Of a DNA stretch of 14,002 bases, positions 10,021 to 11,924 are shown in pieces. Origin of the DNA: Solirubrobacteraceae bacterium (lineage in GTDB: Bacteria; Actinomycetota; Thermoleophilia; Solirubrobacterales; Solirubrobacteraceae); contig JAICJK010000018.1 of assembly GCA_025928415.1 (NCBI GenBank), positions 1 to 14,002 on the forward strand, written 5' to 3'. Every line of letters begins with the position of its first letter. Within the stretch, counting starts at the first letter, position 1. A program made the position numbers and the translations under genes. The notes below the pieces were generated by a model. It was not told where the DNA came from. It ran no database searches and worked only from the letters and a program-made list of their open reading frames with translations.

Positions 10021-11924
<1,904 letters not shown>

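Follow-up and report, generated by a model that had tools for sequence, protein, structure and literature searches.

The window analysed here, a stretch of 14,002 nucleotides from the genome of a soil bacterium of the Solirubrobacteraceae, encodes a cytochrome c oxidase whose subunit I (CtaD) carries glutamine at the position of the K-channel lysine. This gene is a typical representative of a variant that is large and apparently little characterised; the interest lies in the group as a whole. Judged by its sequences, the group has lost both ends of the canonical K channel, with the subunit I Lys replaced by Gln and the subunit II Glu by a non-acidic residue. The D channel reads as canonical in the lineage of the window and as re-made in most of the second branch, which consists mainly of Pseudomonadota. 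That K-channel residues of family A can be lost or varied is already in print (PMC8239418), and coxMNOP oxidases have been described genetically as alternative enzymes (PMC5492768, PMC4274787). A first-pass annotation of the window had allowed for Gln being common and already described in this oxidase clade. Common it is, but searches of open-licence full text found no paper that describes the Gln group or reports the subunit II Glu as lost together with the Lys.

Genome and operon context

The source genome is a draft of 3.25 Mb in 669 contigs with a completeness of 87.5%. The minus strand of the window carries, in this order, ctaC, ctaD, ctaE, a gene for a 128-aa protein, a cytochrome c gene, qcrC, qcrA and qcrB, and ctaG lies on the plus strand (Table 1). 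The start codon of ctaC is uncertain, since a lipobox-like LLAAGC points to a Met further on. The named nearest relatives of the CtaD, among the 120 listed of 8000 proteins scored, belong to Solirubrobacteraceae, Solirubrobacterales, Thermoleophilaceae and Baekduia soli, a species whose genus is classified within Thermoleophilia.

Fifteen other Gln-type loci of the class were available for comparison. The qcr genes adjoin ctaD and ctaE in 14 of these, with qcrCAB or qcrCA in 13; one locus (L259) shows part of qcrC only, where its contig ends, another (L257, 8.7 kb) is without any qcr gene, and in L251 the qcr genes are divergent. ctaC is present in 13 loci, and in the other two the contig stops inside ctaD. 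A tblastn match to the 128-aa protein adjoins ctaE in 13/15 loci; the protein is possibly a small subunit of the oxidase. Only three loci (L257, L258, L261) have a match to the separate cytochrome c gene, and ctaG adjoins the operon in two (L252, L260). The cytochrome b family PF13631 has a single match in the incomplete source genome, namely the qcrB of the window, and at least two matches in 13 of the 15 genomes with sister loci.

Table 1 Features of the oxidase region and of the residues discussed, in coordinates of the window.
Feature	Position	Strand	Evidence and remarks
ctaC, subunit II	11929..13062	-	PF00116 + PF00034; CuA motif; one C-terminal CXXCH haem c site
CtaC Val (residue 130 from GTG at 13062), at subunit II entrance-Glu column	12673..12675	-	Subunit II alignment
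ctaD, cytochrome c oxidase subunit I, 635 aa, Gln-type	10017..11924	-	TIGR02891 (CtaD_CoxA) 694.2 bits vs NCBIfam cut-off 670.75; PF00115
Asp115 (Rs D132), D-channel entrance	11580..11582	-	Alignment
Glu266 (Rs E286, D-channel end) and Tyr268 (Rs Y288, active-site Tyr)	11121..11129	-	Alignment
Thr279 (Rs S299) and Ser280 (Rs H300 position, Pd292)	11085..11090	-	Alignment
Ser339, at Rs T359	10908..10910	-	Alignment
Gln342, codon CAG	10899..10901	-	At Rs K362 / Pd K354 position
Ala345, at Rs S365	10890..10892	-	Row alignment
Pro411, second group signature	10692..10694	-	Row alignment
ctaE, subunit III	9400..10017	-	PF00510
Small 128-aa protein	9017..9403	-	Without Pfam family at E 0.1; kept in operon
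Mono-haem cytochrome c	8658..9020	-	PF00034
qcrC, dihaem cytochrome c of bcc complex	7845..8654	-	NF050122 190.4 bits, below cut-off 200; PF13442 + PF00034
qcrA, Rieske subunit	6824..7831	-	PF00355; NF050121 190.9 bits, below cut-off 275
qcrB, cytochrome b	5412..6827	-	NF050120 518.8 bits, cut-off 500; PF13631
ctaG, caa3 assembly factor	4375..5460	+	PF09678

Glutamine at the K site of subunit I

The residue in question lies in the motif I337-P-S-G-I-Q342-L-F-A-W346 of CtaD, and the span singled out by the first-pass annotation (10887-10910) covers S339 to W346. To fix the numbering, the Lys-type CtaD of Paracoccus bogoriensis (L167) served as the anchor; it aligns without gaps to the P. denitrificans structure 1ar1 and stands at an offset of +8 to the R. 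sphaeroides structure 1m56 across the relevant part. On this scale, Q342 corresponds to Pd354 and Rs362, E266 to Rs286, Y268 to Rs288, T279 to Rs299, and S339 to Rs359, so that the equivalences originally proposed and checked in the K-channel region hold. The constant offset of 20 claimed with them applies across that region but not at the D-channel entrance, where it is 17 (D115 = Rs D132). Gln at the K362 position is confirmed both by this structure-anchored alignment and by HMMER, which pairs Q342 with the Lys of mycobacterial PTGIK. Misalignment is ruled out by the ungapped alignment at the site onto solved structures. No replacement Lys is found in CtaD at the channel positions compared, and the conserved Lys at a neighbouring channel position that had been considered as a refutation is thus absent from these positions. 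An A2-type swap of the D-channel Glu is ruled out for the window CtaD, in which HPEVY is intact.

Among the best 120 of 8000 proteins scored, the window's own included, all 120 have Gln at the Q342 site, and S332, S339, T279, Y268 and E266 are likewise found in 120/120. The earlier judgement that the gene does not look broken, and that metal ligands and D channel are intact, is borne out: the frame is open, the protein scores above the TIGR02891 cut-off, the ligands compared are kept and the D-channel residues are canonical. A sequencing error or a decaying gene has nothing beyond the 669-contig draft assembly in its favour, and we regard it as a negligible explanation of Gln342 given the shared Gln in all of these closest proteins, the intact ligands and the full open frame.

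Further losses along the K channel

The K path is described as running from a Glu of subunit II through Ser, Lys and Thr to the active-site Tyr (PMC8361435). For its subunit II end, 148 sequences were found (114 from Gln-type, 32 from Lys-type and 2 from Ala-variant oxidases), of which 112 were used (95, 15 and 2, respectively) and 36 dropped for length. From its motif, xE(I/V)xWT in most Lys-type sequences, we take one column to be the K-channel entrance Glu (yeast Glu82 / Rs E101). Glu occupies this column in 15/15 Lys-type sequences and in 0/95 Gln-type partners. An acidic residue lies within four columns of the lost Glu in 10 of the 95.

Within subunit I, the changes extend beyond the Lys. 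The S365 site holds Ser or Asn in 51/51 Lys rows, and among the 154 Gln rows it holds Ala (107), Cys (30), Ser (16) or Val (1). The Pd292 site is Glu, His or Asp in 47/51 Lys rows; in the Gln rows it is Thr (65), Ser (37), Met (35), Ala (12), Val (2) or His (1), with two gaps, and both Ala-variant rows retain Asp there. Ser or Thr is kept at the T359, S299 and T352 sites in nearly all Gln rows. The earlier statement that hydroxyls remain in the channel is therefore correct for the T359 and S299 positions, but the S365 hydroxyl, the acidic or His residue at Pd292 and the subunit II Glu have been lost.

Further residues of subunit I are signatures of the group. Pro411 is present in 154/154 Gln rows and in both Ala rows, and in 0/51 Lys rows. 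At the E234 site, Glu occurs in 115/154 Gln rows, and at the K194 site, Lys or Arg occurs in 135/154, each against 0/51 Lys rows; from this alignment, K194 reads as a signature of the group.

Distribution and phylogeny of the Gln group

The survey of related genomes that had been suggested reveals a large Gln group, and the substitution is not peculiar to the window gene. A scan for the Gln-motif pattern in a collection with one genome per species yielded at least 119 loci; as it searched for Gln, it shows open frames and not frequency. All 119 loci listed are open frames with a COX1 motif, and HPEVY or HPDVY lies upstream in nearly all of them, a few frames being cut. By record titles, these 119 comprise 103 loci from Pseudomonadota, 8 from Actinomycetota, 2 from Rokuibacteriota and one each from Acidobacteriota, Chloroflexota, Gemmatimonadota, Verrucomicrobiota and Bacillota, with one unplaced. 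Members of the group include Sinorhizobium meliloti 4H41, Pseudomonas chengduensis, Paracoccus bogoriensis and Baekduia soli. Within the window's class the distribution is sporadic: the exact pattern, which misses more divergent motif codings, occurs in 16/299 genomes including the source genome, and in the source genus it occurs in the source genome alone (1/4).

The window CtaD belongs to this group by its Gln at Pd354, its Pro411, the missing subunit II Glu of its partner and its placement in the trees. A FastTree analysis of 199 rows separates 150 Gln and 2 Ala-variant rows from 47 Lys rows (24 A1, 23 A2) on a branch with a value of 99, and a quick IQ-TREE analysis of 72 selected rows separates 46 Gln and 2 Ala rows from 24 Lys rows, five of them bo3-like, again at 99. 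K-site columns were dropped before both trees, and the root was not inferred. Since Lys is common to the A1, A2 and bo3-like rows, the simplest history is that Lys was lost once, when the group arose. A search for Gln supplied most of the Gln rows, and these trees therefore give no count of rare losses that arose independently in other lineages. The 154 Gln rows include near-duplicates, among them three copies of the window gene. Some loci were missed by the K-site regular expression and inspected later: L176 is Gln-type, and L179, L180, L181, L205, L206, L208 and L213 are Lys-type, and from their GHPEVY and HHFF motifs we read them as bo3 quinol oxidases. L169 yielded nothing, and a false reading frame (L141_G) was excluded.

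Several individual members deserve mention. The gene recorded as L185 and L248 (G132:C106; also L245 by its coordinates) is Gln-type with AHRM for AHHM, in which one CuB His would be Arg, through either a sequencing error or a real loss. Two sequences nested in the Gln group have Ala at the K site, namely L204 (G203:C19, from the same genome as the Paraburkholderia graminis locus L106) and, in L041 (Methylobacter sp. BlB1), the second of the COX1 frames; in both, Trp replaces the D-channel Glu, leaving both key proton residues absent. The Gln-type CtaD of L114, titled Bacillus sp. 2B10, groups with a Sphingomonas copy in the FastTree analysis and possibly stems from a mislabelled or contaminated assembly. 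Relatives of the window CtaD are also encoded on 932 plasmid records. Rhizobiales and Burkholderiaceae account for most of the 40 listed, and the sole record checked, R. etli CIAT 652 pC, has Gln (PAGTQ) and is conjugative by its typing.

Two states of the D channel

In the window CtaD, N104, N122 and N187 correspond to Rs N121, N139 and N207 and are kept; together with D115, each is found in 120/120 of the closest proteins (best 120 of 8000 scored). The actinobacterial sets likewise show Asn, Asp, Asn and Asn at the N121, D132, N139 and N207 sites in 22 of 23 rows, the other being a gap.

The 122 non-actinobacterial Gln rows, 102 of them placed in Pseudomonadota, differ from this arrangement. 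Asn is absent from their N121 site, where 103 rows have Val, Ile, Leu or Met, and from their N207 site, where 107 have Glu; the N139 site is Ser in 64, Thr in 18 and Asn in 26. Their D132 site is Asp in 90 rows, Asn in 11, Ser in 8, Glu in 4 and Arg in 1, with 8 gaps (over all 154 Gln rows: Asp 119, Asn 12, Ser 8, Glu 5, Arg 1, gap 9). As some Gln rows thus lack the entrance Asp, a route through the D channel alone is not simply extendable across the group. In addition, the Pd190 site is Glu in 122/154 Gln rows.

Ser or Thr at N139 of laboratory enzymes retains O2 reduction and abolishes pumping, and a Lys mutant regained the Pr to F transition when N98D or N98T was added (PMC12901375). That Ser or Thr replaces this Asn (N98) so frequently in a natural K-less group, in 82/122 rows outside the actinobacteria, is suggestive. 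The lineage of the window keeps Asn at N139, and this natural "decoupling" change can therefore not be its remedy.

Lys-type partner oxidases

A Lys-type A-family oxidase co-occurs with the Gln type in 30 of the 32 genomes examined, a tally made without the weaker PF00115 matches and COX1 fragments. These comprise 15/16 genomes reached via titled loci and 15/16 genomes of the class, the source genome among the latter; the two exceptions (G209 and G301, respectively) represent no call and not absence. In the source genome, Lys-type oxidases of both kinds are present, one A1 (L001) and one A2 (L003). Its A2-type (SHPAVY) oxidase is seemingly split across two contig ends (G000:C89 and C335; L001, L003, L004). 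In published genetic work, the coxMNOP oxidase of Pseudomonas KF707 has very low promoter activity (PMC5492768), and a coxM_P mutant of R. etli shows no distinct growth defect (PMC4274787).

Proton delivery without the K-channel lysine

We cautiously regard it as probable that the window encodes a working bcc-linked caa3-type oxidase that takes up its protons mainly or only via the D channel. The first-pass annotation's suggestion that protons may be delivered by another route is shared here. O2 would be reduced by the usual chemistry, with electrons passing from the co-encoded bcc complex to the haem c and CuA of CtaC, and the D channel would bring most or all of the protons, substrate and pumped alike, to Glu266. 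Re-protonation of the active-site Tyr could take place across the binuclear centre or, alternatively, by a short water path along T279, S339 and Q342 without a defined entrance. The Gln-type enzyme would serve alongside the Lys-type oxidase. Lys-type enzymes without the K-channel Lys lose activity, and a D-only route therefore needs proton transfer across the binuclear centre. A barrier to this transfer has been argued (PMC8079940). Also against the D-only reading count the acidic residue close to the lost Glu in 10 of the 95 Gln-type subunit II sequences, the Asp at Pd292 in both Ala-variant rows, and the Lys-free K-like path of the B and C families. On the other side, in K-channel mutants one reduction step is described as blocked, and the D channel as able to carry seven of the eight protons (PMC12901375). 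The severe impairment that the first-pass annotation expected from loss of the Lys applies to laboratory mutants of Lys-type enzymes, but the B and C families have no Lys at the site (PMC12901375), so that this residue is not universally required.

A K path that is kept but re-lined, in which Gln342, T279, S339, S332 and water would lead to Tyr268 from a new cytoplasmic entrance, seems possible to us without being probable. The hydroxyls of T279, S339 and S332, invariant together with Q342 in 120/120 of the closest proteins (best 120 of 8000 scored), would be compatible with an upper K path that is still used, and almost every Gln row has Ser or Thr at these three positions. The Thr of the B family and the Gly of the C family at the Lys site (PMC12901375, Table 2) point the same way, and Gln rows without the D-channel Asp would need another route. 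Against such a path stand the absence of the subunit II Glu in 95/95 Gln-type partners and the presence of Thr, Ser, Met, Ala or Val at Pd292 in 151/154 Gln rows (His in one, gaps in two); the S299 site holds Thr or Ser and not the B-type Tyr, and the Ala-variant rows L041 and L204, although inside the group, are without Gln as well. We consider it improbable that the enzyme has low activity or a special role, for example as an auxiliary, weakly expressed or non-pumping oxidase, in which slow uptake on the K side is tolerated. Its genes lie with those of a bcc complex in the window and the sister loci, and the sole PF13631 match of the incomplete source genome lies in the window; in favour of a low-activity or specialised enzyme are the Lys-type oxidase in 30/32 genomes, the restriction of the pattern to 16/299 genomes of the class and, if the two are of the Gln type, the coxMNOP observations in KF707 and R. 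etli (PMC5492768, PMC4274787).

Extending the D-channel reading to the whole group, as K-channel abandonment with D-only running, is more doubtful, and we rate it as somewhat unlikely; most of the Pseudomonadota branch, carrying Ser or Thr at N139, may then be naturally decoupled or pump with an altered stoichiometry, and the actinobacterial branch would be K-less with a canonical D channel. The need for two channels, and the proton count of the K channel, have been argued largely from impaired laboratory mutants. A natural, widespread group without the K-channel Lys and the subunit II Glu makes the channel question directly testable and could reveal if, and by what means, an oxidase functions in the absence of a K channel, and its branches with canonical and re-made D channels constitute a natural experiment on coupling.

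Comparison with known oxidases

By the features that define A1-type oxidases, the window CtaD matches in its D channel and departs in its K channel. The XGHPEVY motif is present as FGHPEVY with E266, a Glu in 120/120 of the closest proteins (best 120 of 8000 scored), and the published D-channel residues of P. denitrificans apart from Tyr35 (D124, N113, N131, S134, S192, S193 and N199) have their equivalents in D115, N104, N122, S125, S180, S181 and N187. The A1-type K-channel residues are Lys354, Thr351, Ser291 and Tyr280 (PMC3084760, Table 2). The window has Q342 for the Lys, and S339, T279 and Y268 are conservative or identical; in subunit II, the CuA motif is accompanied by Val at the entrance-Glu column. 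Compared with canonical A1 aa3 oxidases (1ar1, 1m56 and the mycobacterial 6adq), it has the same COX1 family, HPEVY, compared haem and CuB ligands, Tyr and D channel, but differs in the Gln for Lys, the Ala at S365, the lost subunit II Glu and Pro411. The adjoining bcc genes are similar to the actinobacterial bcc families, as seen from their profile matches.

The Gln is shared with Pseudomonadota oxidases of S. meliloti 4H41, P. chengduensis, P. bogoriensis and R. etli CIAT 652 pC; the first three also have a non-acidic subunit II column and fall in the same tree group as the window. Non-actinobacterial Gln-type oxidases differ in their mostly re-made D channel, which is canonical in the window lineage. 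The Gln group possibly overlaps with the coxMNOP aa3/ccaa3 oxidases of KF707 and R. etli CFN42 and with COX operon type a (PMC4013037); the coxMNOP oxidases are described as secondary aa3-type enzymes next to a main aa3, like the Gln type. The window CtaD does not match the B type, as its D-channel residues are present, the S299 site is Thr and not Tyr, and the Lys site is Gln and not Thr. With the B (ba3) and C (cbb3) families it shares the absence of the Lys, which is Thr and Gly there (PMC12901375, Table 2). These families have no active D pathway and use a K-like path, whereas the window CtaD keeps the D-channel residues and HPEVY.
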